DNA of 46,609 nt. Origin: Candidatus Bathyarchaeota archaeon. Its GTDB lineage: Archaea > Thermoproteota > Bathyarchaeia > 40CM-2-53-6. The position numbers were made by a program, and so were the translations under genes. Below are positions 7,828 to 18,079 of the stretch, piece after piece. Below the pieces are notes generated by a model. It was not told the origin of the DNA. It saw only the letters and a program-made list of their open reading frames with translations, and did no database searches. The stretch covers positions 1 to 46,609 of the forward strand of contig VBBS01000035.1 of NCBI GenBank assembly GCA_005888745.1, given 5' to 3'. Position 1 is the first letter of the stretch. Each line of letters begins with the position of its first letter.

Positions 7828-9804
7828 CTAACGTCGGGGCTTCTCTTTCTTCCCCTTTAGCAAGGCATCAAGGCTAACACCGTTGACTGTGAAAACGCGA
7901 TAGCGTGTTCCTGGAAGGTCACCATACGCCTTACCCTCGGCACCGCCAATGCCCTCGATCTCAACCTCATCATGTTCGTCTATGAAGTTCAACGCCCCAT
8001 CGCCCGGAAGAAAGGCCGTCACTGTCTTCCCGTTCTTGATAATCTGAGCCCTAACGCAGTTGGAGGTGAGGAAGCCGTTGGCGAAGAAGTTGTGGTTCTT
8101 GCTGGCAGTTGTAATGTCCAGTAACCGATTTTCGTTGGAGGGCTTGACTTTTGCGATTGTTTCCCATACGAGACCGTCGGGTAAGTCTGACTGTTGCCGG
8201 ACGAACTCCGCGAAGGGAGGACCGATATGAGCCGTGGAGCCCAGCCTTTCGATTCTTCTGACTCCAACTGAAGCCCAGGAATTGACAACGCTTCTCCCAA
8301 AATCGTATCCTTCGCCTCGTAGCCTTTCACAAACCTGCTTGATGGTGAGAGCCTTGGCTCTCAGTTTGAGGGCGCGACTGTAAGCTTCCTTGGCGCGTTC
8401 TATTCGACGCTTTCTCATTAGAAGGTATTCGTAGGCATATCGGGAGAAAGTTTCTCGGGTCTTCTGATACCTGTAGCCTATCTTTCCAAAGAGCGAGAGA
8501 AGATTCTCGAAGCCTGAATCAATGTAGGTTGTGAGTCGGAACAATTTCACGCCGTTGCATCGTATGACCGAAGGTCTCATCGAACACTCAGAGGATTCAA
8601 CGCCGAATTCCCTGAGAAGCCGCCGTATGCTGTTAATGAGTCTCTTGCCGCTCTCAATGTTGCTCTCCGACTTGCAGATGGTGAAACTCGGAGCTTGAAG
8701 AGTGGTTCCATTCCTTCCGCGGGCTCGAGGCTTCTCCAGCTCGCTTCCGAAGAAAGATGCCAAGAATTCTCTCTTTACCCATAAAGGCGCTTTCATTATC
8801 CACTGCGGGACATTGTAGGCAAGATCAGATTTTCGACCCACCGGTGCCCCGAGTGATTTCAACAGAGTAAACAGGACGATTGAGGTGGAAGCTACGATGT
8901 GATAGTGTCCAGAAATTACTTGCTGGGTGCCATTGTACAGGTTGATTATGCTCGTAGATTCTCCCTCGTAAACAGGGCTTGAATGAAATCCTAGCGAGCT
9001 CAGGTCTGCGGCGATGGTTTCCAGATCATCTGGATTACCTGATGCGACGAATTTTCCGGTCCAGCCGTTCCCACCCTTCGAATAGCTGAGGGTTCCGTCA
9101 CCGAAAACATGGCCGACAACTCGTGCGAGTTGAACGACCTTCGCGTTGTCGTAGGTTAAGGGAAGGAGGCTTCTGGAATAGAGTTCCGAAACAATACGGT
9201 TAGATCTTGAAGAAGGAGGAATGTTTTCCAGGATATCCTTGTCGGTAAGGACACCTCCTCGCGACGGCTGCTTCTCAACACCTGGAACGGGCATGACAAT
9301 GACCTTGTCTCCCAACTTCAGCCTTCGGGCCTCAACGACTCCGACCGAAGTGAAGAAGGGATGATCAGCACTACAGACGATCCTACGTCCAGTCTCTTCT
9401 GCGACAACTTCTAGAGCTCCAGTTTGTCTGGCTTCCGTCTCAGTGAGAGCGAAGAAATCTACGATTGGCGACCGTTCTACAACTCTCGTCTGCGGATTGA
9501 ACGTTGCAATTTCGCTGATTCGCCAGTACTGCTCAAGCTTCTCAATTGCGGATGAGTTGCCATCCGCCAATAATACACTCGTACCGGGGGCTACACATTT
9601 TCGGACTGCGCTGTTGGGTTGTCGGCATTCCACTCCGACCTTTTCTAGAACGATGGCTTTTCCCTGCGGCGCCCCTTGGAGCGGGTCTGACTTGTAGTCT
9701 AAACCAAGCATTCGTCGTTTGTACGGTGCGTAGGCCCACCTGAACTCCTTCCGTCTCTTCCGAAGTTTCTGGGCTGCGAACAGCCCCCTTGAGGCCTTGG
9801 CCAT
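7828..9804 (-). CDS. rps12: Ribosomal protein S12 (uS12) precursor interrupted by an intein
   Basis: uS12 sits in the decoding centre of the small ribosomal subunit. Residues 1-69 are the archaeal S12 N-terminus ending in [13 protein letters not shown]. Residues 583-658 are its C-terminus, beginning [13 protein letters not shown]. Joined, they give a normal 145-residue S12. Between them lie 513 residues of intein (entered separately). Functional ribosomes therefore require protein splicing. The gene is the last of the RNA polymerase gene group on the minus strand. A 230-base gap with its own TATA-like sequence suggests separate transcription. Upstream of the ATG, GGTGGATG could act as a ribosome binding site. 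Confidence 0.95.
8059..9597 (-). mobile_element. Intein with LAGLIDADG homing endonuclease inside S12
   Basis: The intein covers residues 70-582. It starts with Cys ([13 protein letters not shown], block A), has the block B histidine in CSADHPFF, and ends [13 protein letters not shown] before Cys+1. The penultimate residue is Ser rather than the usual His. Two LAGLIDADG-type motifs, VVGHVFGDG and LASFFGSEL, keep an acidic residue at position 8, so the endonuclease may be active. It interrupts the conserved RKCVR segment of S12, between Lys69 and the Cys that is both intein and extein nucleophile. Confidence 0.92.
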
Positions 9805-10034: not shown

Positions 10035-10475
10035 TTATTGGACCACTACGTGGTCGATGTCGAAGTATCTCTTCACAAGCAAACGGGTCTTGTCAATAGT
10101 CCGACCGTTTTTTCCGATTGCGATTGCCTTATCCTGAGCGTCTACTTCCACGACCACGATCTTCTTGTCGGGCCTCTCGGTTACTCGGATCTCTTTGATT
10201 CTTGCAGGTGAGAGGCTGTTACGAATCAAGCCTTCAGGGGTGTCCGCGTACTCCACAACCTCGATCTGCCGACTTGTCATGCGGCGCAACTGGTTAATGT
10301 TCTTCCCGCCCTTGCCGATTGCGAGGCCCATGTCGCCTGGTTTTGCGACGAAAATGATGCGTCCTAGTTTCTCATCGATCACGCAGTCTTGTGTGGTGGC
10401 ACCTGTGGTGCTCTCGAAGAGAGCCATGTATTTCATTTCTTCGCTGGTTAGTTTGATCTTGGGCTGAAGCATCAC
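10035..10475 (-). CDS. nusA: NusA-like transcription factor with two KH domains
   Basis: Archaeal NusA-like proteins keep only the two KH RNA-binding domains of bacterial NusA and are coded next to the RNA polymerase large subunits. The 146-residue product has the KH loops GKGGKNI (54-60) and GKNGRTI (121-127). Three candidate starts lie in frame (GTG 10478, ATG 10475, ATG 10472), with GGGAGG about 14 bases upstream. It follows the L30e gene after about 90 bases. A role in elongation, termination or rRNA handling is inferred from the family only. Confidence 0.93.
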   Translation of the reverse strand: MMLQPKIKLTSEEMKYMALFESTTGATTQDCVIDEKLGRIIFVAKPGDMGLAIGKGGKNINQLRRMTSRQIEVVEYADTPEGLIRNSLSPARIKEIRVTERPDKKIVVVEVDAQDKAIAIGKNGRTIDKTRLLVKRYFDIDHVVVQ

Positions 10476-10568: not shown

Positions 10569-10877
10569 TTACTCATTATGCTTCTCAGCTAGTTTCAAGA
10601 CCTCTGAGTCCCCGGGTTCTCTAACGACCATCGATGCAACGGGGAAGGGTTTCTCGCAGAGCGCTCCCAGGTCGAGACTGTTGCCCTGAAAGACGTAGAC
10701 TGGAACCTCTGACTGTTTTGCGTCGTAGACTATGTTTTCGCGAAAATCTGCTGGGCAGTTGCTCGCGAGGATCAAGAGTTTGGCTCTGCCGAGGGAGGCG
10801 CTTGATAGCGTGACTTTGCTTCCGAATTCTACCTTGCCGGTCTTGACGGCCATGCGGATCTGTTTGTTCACGTCCAT
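10569..10877 (-). CDS. rpl30e: Ribosomal protein L30e (eL30)
   Basis: The 102-residue product has the L7Ae/L30e RNA-binding fold. It opens with a helix (VNKQIRMAVKTGKVEFG), followed by KLLILASNCP, the beta strand VPVYVF and the C-terminal SMVVREPGDSEVL. The gene starts six bases after the rpoA stop and is followed by nusA, the standard archaeal order. It belongs to the large ribosomal subunit. Confidence 0.95.
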   Translation of the reverse strand: MDVNKQIRMAVKTGKVEFGSKVTLSSASLGRAKLLILASNCPADFRENIVYDAKQSEVPVYVFQGNSLDLGALCEKPFPVASMVVREPGDSEVLKLAEKHNE

Positions 10878-10883
10878 CTGGCC

Positions 10884-13800
10884 TTACTTGCTCCCTTTCC
10901 GCGACATGGACATCGAGACCTCTATGAGACCCGTGCCCATCGGTACTTGTTGACCGACGATCACGTTCTCGGCGACGCCCCTTAGCGTGTCAACGATTCC
11001 TTTTACTGCAGCGTCTACGATTGTGGGAATTGTGATCTCGAATGCTGCTTTGGCAAGCGTGCTCGCTTTCTCTCCGCTTACGCCATGGCGTCCGACTTGG
11101 AGGACTTCGCCAGATGAGGTCATCATGTCCGCGACAAGCATCACGTGTCGAATGTCTACGTCGAGACCTTGTTCCTCGAGCACTCCTAGAGCCTCTTTGA
11201 CTATCACGTTGCGAGCGGCTTCGATCCCTAGAACTACGGCTGTTTCGTTGATGTTGTTGCTTACCGTCCGGCTTGTATCAACGCCCGGAACCTCGAAGGC
11301 CAACGCGAGACTGGACCCTTCGGTTCTAACTATCCATTCACCTTTCTCCTCTATGACGAGAGCTCTTCGGACTGCAGGTAAACCCTTGACGTGATGGACT
11401 AGGAGTTTGCTCGCTAGGCGTCTGAACTGGGGGATCTCAAGCTCCTTCGACTTGATCTCCACATGGTACCCCTCGACTTTCACCTCGCAGTTCGGCGGTT
11501 TCACCGCATCCCGCACGTCCTGGACGGTGATCTCTCTCTCACGCATCGCTTGCGGGTTCAGTTTTACATCGATTCTCATCCGTGTAACATCAGACTCGAA
11601 TGTGCTGGCTATGTCTCCTAGTGTCGCGTGGGTGAGCTGTGTGGCCACTTCCTGGGCTTTCTCTCTGCTCGCTCTGTGTTTCGGATCCAGGTAAACTGTC
11701 ATGTTTGGAGTTGAGGGGATCTTTCTTGCATCAACGATCTCTATGAGTCTTGGAAGTCCCAAGGTCACGTTTTGCTCTCGGACTCCTGCGAAGTGGAAGG
11801 TTCTGAGCGTCATCTGTGTACCAGGTTCGCCGATGGACTGGGCGGAGACTATTCCTGCGGCCTCGCCAGGCTCCACGAGAGCACGTTTGTAATTCTCTAT
11901 AGCCTCAAGTACGGTCTCGTCAACAGCCGGTTTGGGCAGTTTCGCGTTTACCAGGCTCTGGCGCAGCTTGTTCAGTATCAAGGGCGAGAGAGTGTTGTTC
12001 GCCTTGTCAACTTCATCCTCAACGTACTCCTTGGTCGCGGCAGTTCCCTTCTTCATTGTAAGACGGATGCGTTCTATCAAACGGTCAATGTTGACAGCCT
12101 TCCCGTGATCGCTCTTCGCCGTGTCAACACCGTCTTCGCCATAACGGACCTGGATAATGTTACCTCGGGAATCTCTGACGGTTGAGTCGTATTCGACTCT
12201 GAGATGCTCCAGGGCGTTGATTAGGCGTCGTTGCATGTATCCGCTCTGCTGGGTTCTGACCGCTGTATCGACTAGTCCCTCTCTACCCCCCATCGCATGG
12301 AAGAAGAATTCGATGGGTTCAAGCCCGTCTCGGTAGGAGTTGTAGACGAAGCCTCGAGCTGCTGCTCCGGCGTCTCCAGGTTTGAAGAATGATAGTGCTC
12401 TGCCCCGATATCCTCGGAGGATTCTTTTTCCTCGGATCGATTGTTGGCCGACGCTTGCGGTCATCTGGGATATGTTGAGTGTCGAGCCTCGAGCCCCTGC
12501 CCTGCTCATGATTACGCCGCTGTTGTCCATCTGGAAGTACTGGTCCGCGAACTCGCCCGCTACATCTCGGGCTCTAGAGAGCTCGTTCATGATATAGAGC
12601 TCCAATGATTCTTCCAATGACTGTCCCGGCAACCGTTCTAGCGTCTCTTTGCGGTAGCTGTCGATGTACTCGTTGACTTTCTCTTCGGCCTTGGCGATGG
12701 CTTTAGCGATCTTTTCCTTGGTGGCTGGAGGGATCTCGAGTTCGTCAAACGCGTATGTGAAACCTCGAAGAACCATGTATCGATCGAGAAGTTTCGTAAC
12801 AGCGTTGAGAAAGGTCCTCGCATCTTCCGCTCCGTAGTCTTTGACTATTCGGTGGAAGAGGCTCTCTGATTTTTCGGCGCCGATAGACGCCTTGTCGATC
12901 ACGCCTTGCTCAAGGACGCCATCTTTGATCACGATGAAGGCATCATAGGGGCAGTCGTGAAGAACTCCTTTGTCGCAGTCCGCGCACTTGTAGTAGCTTG
13001 AAAGGTTGGATTTCGACACGAAATTGAAGCCCTTCGGAATGACGATACTGAAAATCTGTTTCCCAGTCCACTTCTCTTCAGGTTTTGTTACTGCCGGCTC
13101 TGGCATAGGTCCCTCGAAGCCGGCCGCCGCAAGTAGCCTCGAGACAGTTGGACGGTCAAGGAGTGTTGATTTCTGCGTTAGAAGGAACGCTGCTGTCAGG
13201 GAGTCTCGGATTGCTCCGATGATCGGCCCTCCGTACCTTGGGGAGAGGATCTGGTCCTGGACCTGCATGAGGAGGCGAGCCTCGGTGCGAGCTTCTTCCC
13301 CTTGTGGAACGTGAAGGTTCATCTCGTCACCGTCAAAGTCGGCGTTGTAGGGCGGACAGACGGTTGGGTTGAGCCTGAAGGTCTTGTAGGGGAGGACTCG
13401 GACACGGTGTGCCATGATGGACATTCTGTGGAGGCTCGGTTGCCGGTTGAAGAGCACAATGTCGCCATCTCTAAGATGTCTCTCGACGACGAAGCCGGGC
13501 TGAAGCGCTTCCGCGACCACCTTTCTATCCGTAACGAATTCGAGCCGGACCCGTCGGCCATCGGGACGAACGATGTACAGTGACCCTGGGTAGGTATCGG
13601 GGCCGTTGCTGATAAGCCGCTTCATCTCTTCGAGATTGTAATCAGTAGCCTTCTCGGGAATCGTTAGGCGGCTTGCAACGTCGAGGGGTACTCCTACTTC
13701 GTTGATGTCTAGGTTCGGGTCAGGGGAAACGACTGTTCGAGCCGAGAAGTCGACCCGTTTGCCTGATAGGTTGCCTCTGAATCTTCCTTCTTTTCCTTTC

Positions 13801-14729
13801 AATCGTTGAACCAGTGTCTTCAGCGCCCTTCCAGATCTGTGTCTCGCAGGGGGGAGGCCTGAGACCTCGTTGTCGAAGTAGGTGGTTACGTGGTATTGGA
13901 GTAGTTCGTGGAGTTCTTGAATGATGTTGATGGGAACTCCGGATTCAAGCGCCTCACGCAGTTTCTGGTTGATTCTGATGATGTCGACGAGCTTGTGGGT
14001 TAGATCGTCCTCGGACCTGATGCCGGACTCTAGAGTTATGGAGGGTCTGACCGAGACGGGAGGGACCGGCATGACTTGGAGGACAGCCCACTCTGGGCGC
14101 GCAGCTTTGGGATCCATTCCGAGGAGAATCAGGTCATCGTCAGGAATTCTCTCAAGTCTCTCCCGGACCGTGCTGGGAGTTAGGCGCACCGCGCCTCCTT
14201 CGGCCACTATCTCGTGGAAGGTGGTGGGTTTGCCATGTTCGATCGGGTACTGTTTCTGCCCGCAGTGGGGACACTGTTGGGCTTTCTTGGCGTCTTTGAT
14301 TATCTCGTCAAGGAAGGCGTCAGGTATAGTGTTGAGTCGTTGTTTGAGATCGGCGTGGCGTACTTTGAATTTCTCGATCTTCTCTTCACTCAGCAGTATT
14401 CTGCCGCAGTTTCTGCAGGTGATTGAGAGGAGTCGATGGATGAGTTTTGCGAAGCTGACATGGATAACGGGTTCTGCCAGCTCAATGTGACCGAAGTGGC
14501 CGGGGCAGGCGGAGGCGGTGTTGCCGCATGTCTTGCATTTTTGGCGAGGTTCAAGGGTCCCGAGTCTGCCGTCCATCAGACCTGATACAATCGGGACTCC
14601 ATCCTCATCGTAGGTGTCCGCTGCCTGGACCTCCACTGCTGATAGTTTTCGAAGTTCTGATGGCGATAATAGTGTGAATCGGATGCTCTGGATTACTTTG
14701 TGAGCTTCTTCCATTGTCGCGAGAGACAT
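10884..14729 (-). CDS. rpoA: DNA-directed RNA polymerase largest subunit, unsplit A'+A''
   Basis: This is the catalytic subunit of RNA polymerase. The start is ATG 14729, two bases after rpoB and preceded by GAGGAGAGGG inside the rpoB end. The frame is open upstream to 14912, but that part only shadows rpoB. The 1281 residues include the N-terminal zinc site CKTCGNTASACPGHFGH (65-81), the GKRVDFSARTVV region, the Mg2+-binding NADFDGD (462-468), the bridge-helix region and the A''-type C-terminal part with EPGTQMTLRTFHFAGV. In most archaea A' and A'' are separate genes, with the break near residue 890 here. No stop or restart is present, so one polypeptide is made. Confidence 0.96.
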   Translation of the reverse strand: MSLATMEEAHKVIQSIRFTLLSPSELRKLSAVEVQAADTYDEDGVPIVSGLMDGRLGTLEPRQKCKTCGNTASACPGHFGHIELAEPVIHVSFAKLIHRLLSITCRNCGRILLSEEKIEKFKVRHADLKQRLNTIPDAFLDEIIKDAKKAQQCPHCGQKQYPIEHGKPTTFHEIVAEGGAVRLTPSTVRERLERIPDDDLILLGMDPKAARPEWAVLQVMPVPPVSVRPSITLESGIRSEDDLTHKLVDIIRINQKLREALESGVPINIIQELHELLQYHVTTYFDNEVSGLPPARHRSGRALKTLVQRLKGKEGRFRGNLSGKRVDFSARTVVSPDPNLDINEVGVPLDVASRLTIPEKATDYNLEEMKRLISNGPDTYPGSLYIVRPDGRRVRLEFVTDRKVVAEALQPGFVVERHLRDGDIVLFNRQPSLHRMSIMAHRVRVLPYKTFRLNPTVCPPYNADFDGDEMNLHVPQGEEARTEARLLMQVQDQILSPRYGGPIIGAIRDSLTAAFLLTQKSTLLDRPTVSRLLAAAGFEGPMPEPAVTKPEEKWTGKQIFSIVIPKGFNFVSKSNLSSYYKCADCDKGVLHDCPYDAFIVIKDGVLEQGVIDKASIGAEKSESLFHRIVKDYGAEDARTFLNAVTKLLDRYMVLRGFTYAFDELEIPPATKEKIAKAIAKAEEKVNEYIDSYRKETLERLPGQSLEESLELYIMNELSRARDVAGEFADQYFQMDNSGVIMSRAGARGSTLNISQMTASVGQQSIRGKRILRGYRGRALSFFKPGDAGAAARGFVYNSYRDGLEPIEFFFHAMGGREGLVDTAVRTQQSGYMQRRLINALEHLRVEYDSTVRDSRGNIIQVRYGEDGVDTAKSDHGKAVNIDRLIERIRLTMKKGTAATKEYVEDEVDKANNTLSPLILNKLRQSLVNAKLPKPAVDETVLEAIENYKRALVEPGEAAGIVSAQSIGEPGTQMTLRTFHFAGVREQNVTLGLPRLIEIVDARKIPSTPNMTVYLDPKHRASREKAQEVATQLTHATLGDIASTFESDVTRMRIDVKLNPQAMREREITVQDVRDAVKPPNCEVKVEGYHVEIKSKELEIPQFRRLASKLLVHHVKGLPAVRRALVIEEKGEWIVRTEGSSLALAFEVPGVDTSRTVSNNINETAVVLGIEAARNVIVKEALGVLEEQGLDVDIRHVMLVADMMTSSGEVLQVGRHGVSGEKASTLAKAAFEITIPTIVDAAVKGIVDTLRGVAENVIVGQQVPMGTGLIEVSMSMSRKGSK

Positions 14730-14731
14730 GG

Positions 14732-17700
14732 TTATGCCCTCTCCTCTAGGTTCAGTCGGGGTGCGATTCCGAGAGCCATGAGCTCTTGTACTAACAGCTT
14801 GAAAGCGTAGGATATTGCGACGGGGGATATGACGGCTTTCTCTGCGTCGATGCGGCAGATGTACTTGTTTTGCTTGATATCGTGATAAGCGAGGGTGCCG
14901 CAGGTCTCGCATACGTAGGCGATGTACTTGTCAGATTCTTCTAGCAGTCTGTCGCGAAGTAGAGCGGATGCTCCGTGTCCGATGAGGCAGTCTCTCTCCA
15001 TTTCCCCAAATCGTAATCCTCCCCCTCTAGCTCTGCCCTCGGTGGGTTGACGTGTGAGCATTTGGACTTGGCCTCTGGCTCGGGCGTGCATCTTGTCGGC
15101 TACCATGTGGTGGAGTTTCTGGTAGTACACGACGCCTATGAACAGGTCGGCTGCGAGCCGTTCACCGGTAATCCCGTTGTAAAGGGGTTCCCGTCCACTC
15201 TTCTCGAAGCCCAGCTTGGTCAACATGTCGCCGATGGCCTGGGGTCCGATGTTTTCGAAGGCTGTCCCGTCCATGATTTCTCCCATTTGGGATGCTAGTT
15301 TTCCGCCGAGTGTTTCTACGAACTGGCCGATTGTCATTCTTGATGGTATCGCATGGGGATTGATGATAACGTCGGGAACGACTCCATCGACTGTGAAGGG
15401 CATGTCTTCTTGCGGTACAAGGAGTCCGATGACTCCTTTCTGTCCGTGACGAGACGCGAACTTGTCGCCTAGTTCGGGGACGCGTAGGTCTCTTACTTTT
15501 ACCTTGACAAGTTTGCTTCCTTCGATAGATTCAGTTACGAAAACTTGATCGATGGTTCCCTGTTCCGAGGGTCTCATCGTAACTGAGGAGTCTCGCTTGG
15601 TAGGGCCTTTGGCTTCGAACTCGCGGTATTCTTCCATGAATCTTGGCGGACTTGTTCGTCCGACAAGAACAGTGTTGCCTGTGGCTTCTGCTTCGGGGGA
15701 AATCATTCCGTCTTCTTCGATGAGTCGGTAGTAGCGGTCCCCGCGATATCCTCTGATGCCGGCTTCTGGTATCTCAAACTTGTCCCGCAGTCCTCCGAGG
15801 TACTGTCTGCTTTCGGCTTCGTAGATTCGGTAGAAGGTTGAGCGGAAGAGGCCTCTGTCGACGGAGGATTTGTTGATGATGATCGCGTCTTCCATGTTGT
15901 AGCCTTGGAAGGAGAGGATTGCGACGACCACGTTTTGCCCGGAGGGGCGTTCGAGATAGTTGAAGACCTCCATGGGTTTCGTCTGGACGATGGGTGTCTG
16001 TGCATAGTGGAGGAGATGGGATCGGGAGTCGACCCTAGTGAAGAAGTTGGTCGAGAAAACGCCCAAGGCTTGTTTCGCCATAGCCGATTCGTAGGCGTTT
16101 CGTGGAGATTGGTTGTGTTCGGGGAATGGGATGAGGCTCGCGGCTATTCCGAGCATAACGTAGGGCGCGATTTCTAGGTGAGTGTGGTCCTTTCTGAGGT
16201 CGTGTTCGTACATGGCGATTAGGGCGTTTTCTTCCTCGTCTGCGTCTAGCATCTCTACGACTCCTGATCTGACCAGGTCTTGCCAGGCGATTCGTCCCTG
16301 TTCGAGTTGGATAAGATGGTCCTCGGTTAGTCGTGGTCGGCTGCTGTCAACCACGATCAGTGGACGCCGGACTCTTCCAGCGTCACAGTTCACATGTAAA
16401 TCGGCTCTTCCTCCCCTCGCCTCTGGAGGATGGAATGAGAAATTAACCTCCGAGCTCAGCTTTCCTTCACGCCTGAGTTCTCGCAGCTCTCCGGCGAGTG
16501 CGGCGGGATCTTTGGAGTATCCCGCTAGTATCCCGTCTACTATGACTTTGCCGCCTGTCGATCTGAGTTTCTTGTCGGAGTCTTCAATCGGGATTACACC
16601 CGACCTCCGCAGCTTGTCGACCATTTCTCTGGGATCGATTCCGACTGATATGCTGCTGGAGAGTGCGAGGTTCTTGACGAGTCCGCAGTTCGATCCTTCT
16701 GGTGTCTCATCGGGGCAAAGCCTTCCATAATGCGTTGGGTGAAGGTCTCTAGCTTCGAGGTTCGGCTGGCTACGACTGAGGGGAGACTGCAGCCTTCTCA
16801 GATGGCTGAGAGTGCTGACGAAATTTGTCCGGTCTAGTAATTGTGTTACGCCGATTCTTCCCCTAACCCAGTTTCCGGTGGCAATTGCATGCTGAACCCT
16901 CTCGGTGATTATTCCAGGCCTAATCGCATTGGCGATCGAAAATTCTATGTGTCGTCTGATGGTTATTCTCTCAAGCTGATACTTGAGATCCCGAGTGAGG
17001 TTTCGGAAGGATATTCGGAACAGTTCAGCTAAGAGGGAACCGGCCAGTTTCAGTCGTTTGTTCGCATAATGATCCTTGTCGTCAGAAGTCCGTCGTCCGA
17101 GCTTGACTTCTATTATTCGAGCAGCAATCTCCGTCAGGAAGAGCCCTTTCTCCCTTCGTTCCGCGGGGAGCCTGCCGAGGTGTGGCAGAAAGTTTCGATC
17201 CAGTACAGACTCGGCTTTCTTCAGTCGGTACTCGTCCACCTGTCCGGGAGCAAGACGGTTGCCGAGATACAGGAGGGCATCGTGACTGTTATTGGCCTCT
17301 AGAGATTTCTCGTACGAGGCTTCAAGTTCGTCTTGTATGTCGGGGTCAGTGCTCACGAGTTCTGCGATCTTGGCGTCTTCCTCGAATCCGAGTGCGCGCA
17401 TGAGGATCATAAGGGGTATGTCGCTGGGGATTCCCGGCATTGTCACGTAGATTCCCGCGTCGCTCTTCAGAGCTACCTCAATACGTGCCCGAAAACCAAC
17501 GGTGGTGGAGAATATTTTGGCCTTATAGGTTGGATTGACGCCAGTGTGCTCGACATCTACGAGAATCCGGTTCGCGGCGAGATCCTCCAAAGCGACTATA
17601 ACTCGCTCGGATCCGTTTACAATGAAGTATCCACCAGGATCAAGTGGGTCTTCTCCGACGCCCACAAGATCGTCAGGTGACAGTTTGGAGAGCAGACAGA

Positions 17701-18079
17701 TTCGGGATTTGAGCATGACTGGTAGATCACCGATGTAGACCATTTCCGGTTGACCTTCTCGCTCGCCGATCACAGGAATCATTTCCATGTGGAGTGGCGC
17801 TGCGTAAGTCAGATTTCGAATTCTGGCCTCAGCAGGATAGATTGACCTCTCAGTGCCATCTACCTCGATCACTCGGGGCGTTCCAATCTCTATCTTACCT
17901 AGTTTGATCCTTAACGGATAATCTCCGATTTCGATGGGCAATTCTCCGACTTCGTCTACGATTGCTTGAAGTCCTCTCTCAACGAAGTCGTTGTACGAGT
18001 CGATGTGTTGACGAACGAGCCCGCTGTCCTTGATGAACTCCTTAGACAGGTTCCAAAGTTGTTGGGTTGTTACGGCCAT
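14732..18079 (-). CDS. rpoB: DNA-directed RNA polymerase subunit B, unsplit
   Basis: RpoB forms the second half of the polymerase active centre. The 1115-residue product contains YNMEDAIIINKSS (about residue 728), the RHGQKGVIG segment (about 880) and the hybrid-binding PHAIPSRMTIGQ. It is one gene, not split into B' and B''. The C-terminal zinc ribbon starts CETCG (about 1056), but the second half reads YICRIDAEK. Only three of the usual four cysteines are present. Translation starts at ATG 18079 after GGAG and follows rpoH by 24 bases. It is one operon with rpoA. Confidence 0.96.
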   Translation of the reverse strand: MAVTTQQLWNLSKEFIKDSGLVRQHIDSYNDFVERGLQAIVDEVGELPIEIGDYPLRIKLGKIEIGTPRVIEVDGTERSIYPAEARIRNLTYAAPLHMEMIPVIGEREGQPEMVYIGDLPVMLKSRICLLSKLSPDDLVGVGEDPLDPGGYFIVNGSERVIVALEDLAANRILVDVEHTGVNPTYKAKIFSTTVGFRARIEVALKSDAGIYVTMPGIPSDIPLMILMRALGFEEDAKIAELVSTDPDIQDELEASYEKSLEANNSHDALLYLGNRLAPGQVDEYRLKKAESVLDRNFLPHLGRLPAERREKGLFLTEIAARIIEVKLGRRTSDDKDHYANKRLKLAGSLLAELFRISFRNLTRDLKYQLERITIRRHIEFSIANAIRPGIITERVQHAIATGNWVRGRIGVTQLLDRTNFVSTLSHLRRLQSPLSRSQPNLEARDLHPTHYGRLCPDETPEGSNCGLVKNLALSSSISVGIDPREMVDKLRRSGVIPIEDSDKKLRSTGGKVIVDGILAGYSKDPAALAGELRELRREGKLSSEVNFSFHPPEARGGRADLHVNCDAGRVRRPLIVVDSSRPRLTEDHLIQLEQGRIAWQDLVRSGVVEMLDADEEENALIAMYEHDLRKDHTHLEIAPYVMLGIAASLIPFPEHNQSPRNAYESAMAKQALGVFSTNFFTRVDSRSHLLHYAQTPIVQTKPMEVFNYLERPSGQNVVVAILSFQGYNMEDAIIINKSSVDRGLFRSTFYRIYEAESRQYLGGLRDKFEIPEAGIRGYRGDRYYRLIEEDGMISPEAEATGNTVLVGRTSPPRFMEEYREFEAKGPTKRDSSVTMRPSEQGTIDQVFVTESIEGSKLVKVKVRDLRVPELGDKFASRHGQKGVIGLLVPQEDMPFTVDGVVPDVIINPHAIPSRMTIGQFVETLGGKLASQMGEIMDGTAFENIGPQAIGDMLTKLGFEKSGREPLYNGITGERLAADLFIGVVYYQKLHHMVADKMHARARGQVQMLTRQPTEGRARGGGLRFGEMERDCLIGHGASALLRDRLLEESDKYIAYVCETCGTLAYHDIKQNKYICRIDAEKAVISPVAISYAFKLLVQELMALGIAPRLNLEERA

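Follow-up and report, generated by a model that had tools for sequence, protein, structure and literature searches.

The rps12 gene in the window, a stretch of 46,609 nucleotides from a Candidatus Bathyarchaeota archaeon, is interrupted, immediately behind the PNSA-x-RK motif of ribosomal protein uS12, by what is very probably (about 93%, by our estimate) a class 1 intein that encodes a LAGLIDADG homing endonuclease. As judged from its sequence, this intein would be spliced out to give a 145-residue uS12 and would have spread by homing. The mechanism is that of a known class 1 intein type; the unusual part is the host, and we make no claim of priority for it.

The rps12 precursor is a single frame on the minus strand (positions 7828 to 9804; 658 codons plus stop) with an ATG start and no internal stop. 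Pfam matches the 658-residue product to S12 as two pieces (E = 7.8e-37) and to Intein_splicing (E = 7.8e-10), and NCBIfam matches it to archaeal/eukaryotic uS12, again in two pieces (1.3e-60), with intein_Nterm starting at residue 70 and intein_Cterm extending to residue 583. Based on these borders and on the junctions, the intein comprises precursor residues 70 to 582 (8059 to 9597, minus strand), which is 513 residues from Cys1 to Asn513, and it begins with Cys and ends with Ser-Asn, followed by the host Cys+1. Comparison with uninterrupted uS12 delimits an N-extein of residues 1 to 69 that ends in PNSAVRK (9598 to 9804, minus strand) and a C-extein of 76 residues that starts at Cys+1 ([10 protein letters not shown]; 7831 to 8058, minus strand). 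The two exteins (1 to 69 plus 583 to 658) join to 145 residues, and five congeners (G007, G008, G011, G013, and G015) have exactly this sequence as an uninterrupted uS12. The initial annotation had proposed a 513-residue intein in uS12 with borders at 69/583, and a 145-residue S12 upon its removal, and both proposals are borne out by the family searches, the frame, and the congeners. The C-extein starts at the equivalent of position 72 in the archaeal chain 4v6u_AN and of position 71 in the yeast chain 3j6x_23, in a loop that we take to contact the decoding site. Upstream on the same strand are frames named by sequence and place rather than by family search: NusA-like (10035 to 10475), ribosomal protein L30e-like (10569 to 10877), and RNA polymerase subunit A-like (10884 to 14912).

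The residues expected of a class 1 intein are in place (block names as in passages of PMC4031507). Block A (9559 to 9597, minus strand; NCBIfam intein_Nterm) supplies Cys1, where class 1 inteins have Cys or Ser. In the alignment, block B (9358 to 9402, minus strand) has Ser76 and the invariant His79 as the equivalent of Thr-x-x-His, and blocks F and G (8059 to 8124, minus strand) contain the acidic residue Asp494 and His502, followed by Ser512 and the C-terminal Asn513, with Cys+1 in a position that may be Cys, Ser, or Thr; removal of the intein restores the conserved 145-residue host protein. Cys1, Asp78, His79, Asp494, His502, and Asn513 are invariant among 45 aligned relatives, and whole-intein dN/dS values of 0.28 (for the pair of this genome, G000, with its congener G002) and 0.18 (for the congeners G006 and G003) point to purifying selection. 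After translation, the intein would fold and Cys1 would form a thioester; Cys+1 would accept the N-extein, and Asn513 would then cyclise, leaving the uS12 halves ligated into the 145-residue protein that would enter the small subunit. That the halves work unligated, or that the ribosome uses the unspliced precursor, is very unlikely, given that Cys1, Asn513, and Cys+1 are kept in all 21 full-length S12-site alleles (although empty uS12 alleles of the genus usually have Cys at this position as well) and that an insert of 513 residues would hardly be accommodated within the subunit. An empty uS12 allele from the same family (L021 in G020) has Ala rather than Cys at +1 and should not support splicing of the S12 intein.

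The window intein is atypical at two positions, both of which it has in common with its relatives: Ser replaces the usual Thr of block B (19 of the 21 S12-site inteins have Ser here and 2 have Thr), and block G lacks the penultimate His, which is common in class 1 inteins and not strictly defining for them. The initial annotation had noted the penultimate Ser and had supposed that it was unusual and that asparagine cyclisation might need other help. The Ser is there (Ser512), but it is not exceptional for this site, at which the penultimate residue is Ser in 7, Gly in 14, and His in none of the 21 inteins. At other sites, it is Ser in 50, His in 2, and Ala in 1 of 53 RtcB-type inteins (assigned from their junctions), Gly in all 5 RpoB inteins, and Gly in 6 and Lys in 4 of 10 RpoA' inteins. 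Protein splicing without a penultimate His was reportedly described in a paper from 2000. The DnaE inteins are split inteins of cyanobacteria. Like the S12 intein, they have no penultimate His, with Ser or Ala in its place (in passages of PMC5874633), and their entries give weak profile matches to the S12 intein. Since other inteins also have Ser or Ala at this position, a special helper for Asn cyclisation need not be assumed.

If a normal rps12 were present elsewhere, the interrupted copy could simply be a broken gene. As the initial annotation had anticipated, the genome in which the window lies (2,195,209 bases in 75 contigs, 93.23% complete) yielded no second rps12 in a PF00164 search, in which the only matches were the two halves of the interrupted frame. 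The same S12-family search found no separate uninterrupted uS12 in the 22 other carriers, 19 of which have one complete interrupted rps12 frame. Eighteen of the 22 were covered under 21 handles, three of which duplicate a contig (G002, G003, and G006 were searched as G420, G419, and G430), and the other four are G470, G523, G531, and G758. Most carriers, including our 75-contig genome, are drafts whose missing portions could contain another rps12, and the N-half of the gene is imperfect in two of them. In G424 (L049:1025-1231), the interrupted frame is without the first part of the N-half, while in G418 (L061, Vulcanisaeta MG_3), a contig end falls inside the intein and the N-half is split over two frames; draft error and decay are indistinguishable in both cases. 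Against this, none of the 23 carriers has a second S12, two of them (G070 and G137) are one-contig assemblies that are 99% complete, and the filled alleles of the genus all encode the same extein protein sequence, so a normal copy missed by assembly or binning is highly improbable. In G523, the gene is broken across two contig ends and intein sequence opens the second contig; we suspected a split intein here and rejected it in favor of one precursor broken by the contig ends.

The S12 intein is not a singleton. A search of archaeal genomes, which the initial annotation had suggested, found the site filled in 23 genomes that are patchily distributed over the window genus, Nitrososphaeria, Caldivirga/Vulcanisaeta, two DPANN groups, and one MAG labelled Euryarchaeota. 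Four of the 18 genomes of the window genus are filled and 13 are empty, with 1 lacking an S12 match; in the family (21 genomes), 4 are filled (G000, G002, G003, and G006), 15 are uninterrupted, and 2 have no match. At least 6 genomes are filled in a sample of 398 from the phylum (G000, G070, G137, G179, G274, and G381), and for the 71 listed genomes of that sample that share the order or class of the window but not its genus, there is no intein-scale match among the matches listed, which were sorted by E value. Further samples gave 6 of 25 in the family of G070, 5 of 250 in the class of G421, 3 of 87 in the phylum of G427, 2 of 145 in the phylum of G429, and the single genome in the class of G425. 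Because these samples share genomes, and several were built around genomes already known to be carriers, the counts are not prevalences.

When the genome collection was scanned with a pattern, 144 relatives were confirmed, and the 79 loci that came back were assigned to insertion sites by eye from their junctions. Fifteen of these are at the S12 site (L044 to L055, L061, L065, and L068). Three of them come from MAGs that belong to the window genus (Crenarchaeota 13_1_40CM_3_52_10 and _17 and Bathyarchaeota BA_23), and the others are from Nitrososphaerales and Thaumarchaeota MAGs, Diapherotrites, Micrarchaeota, two Aenigmatarchaeota, one Euryarchaeota MAG, Vulcanisaeta MG_3, Caldivirga RSNS23, and Caldivirga MU80. 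A scan of viral contigs gave one weak match (27% over 97 residues). Because the same arrangement recurs in other genomes, it is not a product of chance. Many of the genomes are metagenome derived, which would allow assembly or binning to have fused an intein to rps12, but the same junction is found in 23 genomes from several lineages, including a RefSeq Caldivirga contig (L068) and the one-contig genomes, and such an artefact is the least probable of the explanations that we considered. Since the only rps12 found carries the intein and the same insertion recurs, ribosome building in these archaea should depend on protein splicing.

Within the window genus, synonymous divergence separates the history of the intein from that of its host gene. 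For G000 and G002, dS is 0.241 in the intein versus 0.928 in the exteins, and for G006 and G003, it is 0.094 versus 0.453. The intein values are four- to fivefold lower, and the sign was reversed in 0 of 5,000 codon bootstraps for either pair. Neighboring frames agree with the exteins: dS is 0.35 to 0.78 over 9 frames for G000 and G002, in which case the intein value of 0.24 is just modestly below the lowest neighbor, and 0.29 to 0.61 over 5 frames for G006 and G003. These values are from frames judged to be real genes; short frames paired by blastp, which are mostly antisense shadows and many of which have very low dS, were left out. A low dS is not inherent to the intein, because in Caldivirga/Vulcanisaeta control pairs, intein and extein dS are similar (0.266 and 0.287, 1.38 and 1.04, and 1.40 and 1.78, respectively; one further pair was saturated in the exteins), which also suggests vertical descent of the S12 inteins in that group. 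In the window genus, the synonymous drop inside the intein thus marks a recent transfer between species. Extein DNA was compared among the 14 of 19 alleles that are of equal length (5 were left out), and for each of the 4 filled alleles, the closest of the 13 others is an empty one.

Homing would account for such a transfer. On entry of related DNA, the intein would cut empty rps12 alleles, and repair would copy the intein in; its upkeep would rest chiefly on homing and on the harm done when an intein is lost imprecisely from a gene that is essential, rather than on a demonstrated benefit. The alleles share one insertion point, belong to one clade, and occur patchily, as those of a mobile element would. 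Divergence changes abruptly at the junctions: going upstream, both pairs first differ in the extein at the 4th base, and going downstream, at the 3rd and 7th bases. We thus found no co-conversion tract beside the intein (8059 to 9597) in either pair. Homing by repair should leave such a tract, and very short tracts or later recombination must therefore be assumed.

The endonuclease is represented by two LAGLIDADG-type motifs, as the initial annotation had noted. The first (intein residues 157 to 168; 9094 to 9129, minus strand) ends in GDG with Asp167, and the second (residues 273 to 287; 8737 to 8781, minus strand) has GSEL with Glu286, which provides the two acidic metal-binding residues of this endonuclease type. 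Pfam LAGLIDADG_3 matches the window intein below its cut-off, and it matched 8 of 20 S12-site members at E values up to 0.1. A further stretch (8260 to 8388, minus strand) is possibly DNA binding; a helix-turn-helix is our tentative guess for it, based on a weak TrmB match in just 2 of 20 members. Asp167 and Glu286 are both kept in 19 of 21 S12-site inteins. The exceptions are two Caldivirga inteins of 449 residues (L036 and L037), in which both motifs are altered, with both acidic residues replaced, the endonuclease part is shortened, and the possible DNA-binding stretch is absent. These inteins retain the invariant splicing residues, and dN/dS for the pair is 0.08 in the splicing parts versus 0.21 in the endonuclease part, an order that fits a need for splicing and a lesser need for homing. 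The value of 0.21 still indicates constraint on the endonuclease part, and so its decay may be recent.

The retention of damaged-endonuclease alleles with constrained splicing parts in two Caldivirga genomes could also be taken to mean that splicing is conditional, i.e., that ligation of uS12 awaits a signal such as heat, redox state, or rRNA binding and so gates ribosome assembly. The host is indeed a ribosomal gene of which one copy was found, and RadA inteins provide a precedent (PMC5790916). Near relatives with identical uS12 live without the intein, though, its distribution is patchy, homing accounts for its upkeep, and we saw no feature beyond those of a normal intein. We consider conditional splicing improbable, and it is equally doubtful that Caldivirga-like lineages in particular keep the intein as a posttranslational gate on ribosome assembly after endonuclease decay.

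In a tree of 56 inteins, which included 15 of the 53 RtcB-type inteins, the 21 distinct full-length inteins from the S12 site all group into a single clade (99/99), and the RtcB, RpoA', RpoB, and Pus10 inteins each form a clade of their own by site; the order among the S12, RpoB, RpoA', and Pus10 clades is not settled by this tree. The window genus has two S12 intein types that are 51% identical and are found in hosts with identical uS12 proteins. An earlier tree of 50 inteins had RpoB inteins as the sister of the S12 inteins (92/85), but this grouping was lost on adding four Pus10 inteins, one more S12 intein, and L069, the host of which is a radical-SAM protein as judged by its junction alone. 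We dropped the sister grouping and, along with it, the idea that an intein had spread between neighboring RpoB'' and S12 genes, which had come from the presence of RpoB'' and S12 inteins within one operon in two genomes. We also gave up on tracing transfer between classes with a uS12 host tree, which had too little resolution for this purpose (3 of 14 inner branches starred). Among the gene clusters themselves, that of G422 (L185:4527-8996 and 15847-17829) has three inteins, two in RNA polymerase B'', just ten host residues apart, and one in uS12, and that of G470 (L184:3318-6296 and 12966-14924) has one each in RNA polymerase B'' and uS12. Pus10-like tRNA pseudouridine synthases also have inteins in the phylum of G429, and the +1 residue there is Ser or Cys (L188 and L191 by NCBIfam, L189 and L190 by junctions alone).

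The closest named NCBIfam intein model is RtcB_rel_intein (NF038162), which matches precursor residues 69 to 584 (7.2e-85) with 285.7 bits, well under the model cut-off of 1,150 bits. RtcB inteins resemble the S12 inteins in length (466 to 518 residues), block layout, LAGLIDADG-type motifs, and prevalent penultimate Ser. They differ in having another host and another site (GYDIN|C..CGVR) and in forming a separate clade (100/100); the window intein, with its uS12 host and its lower score, is not one of them, and the RtcB intein in the same genome is 30% identical to it. Compared with the RtcB inteins, those of RpoB, RpoA', and Pus10 are closer to the S12 inteins: identity reaches 33% over the full length for an RpoB intein, and all three groups have similar ends ([12 protein letters not shown]). 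Haloarchaeal inteins are similar in that filled and empty alleles and full and reduced endonucleases coexist, while the hosts named for them in passages of PMC4071816 and the abstract of PMC10643990 are polymerases, MCM/cdc21, and similar proteins and no ribosomal proteins.

In our search of the open-access literature, outside which most subscription journals lie, we found no report of an S12 intein. According to passages of PMC5874633, 62% of bacterial and 67% of archaeal inteins are in replication, recombination, and repair proteins. The stem "ribosom" is absent from the intein reviews PMC5874633, PMC7765530, PMC4031507, and PMC10663303, and no mention of S12 or ribosomal-protein inteins was found in PMC3035369 and PMC4390880 (some texts were searched for one term only). 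PMC4071816 mentions ribosomal proteins four times, in the passages shown as a reference tree.

If the intein is spliced as we propose, each small subunit in the carriers needs one splicing event in a universal protein for which a single gene copy was found per genome, ribosome biogenesis becomes a natural assay of splicing speed and fidelity, and a homing element is able to persist in a core ribosomal gene over several archaeal lineages. The paired alleles within the window genus, in which dS drops at the junctions, preserve a clean record, in nature, of inteins passing between soil archaea. Pipelines for annotation or phylogeny in which uS12 serves as a marker should allow for the insert. Caldivirga and Vulcanisaeta carriers may be culturable.

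The genome from which the window comes is intein rich (contigs C2, C16, C18, C20, C38, C44, and C61). Apart from rps12, frames that contain inteins match MCM, CDC48, ATP synthase A and B, B12-dependent RNR, aEF-2, Mrp/ApbC, PurL, and RtcB, and there are two further weak matches (C16:28934 and C18:3112). With inteins in both uS12 and aEF-2, translation in this archaeon would depend on the splicing of both.
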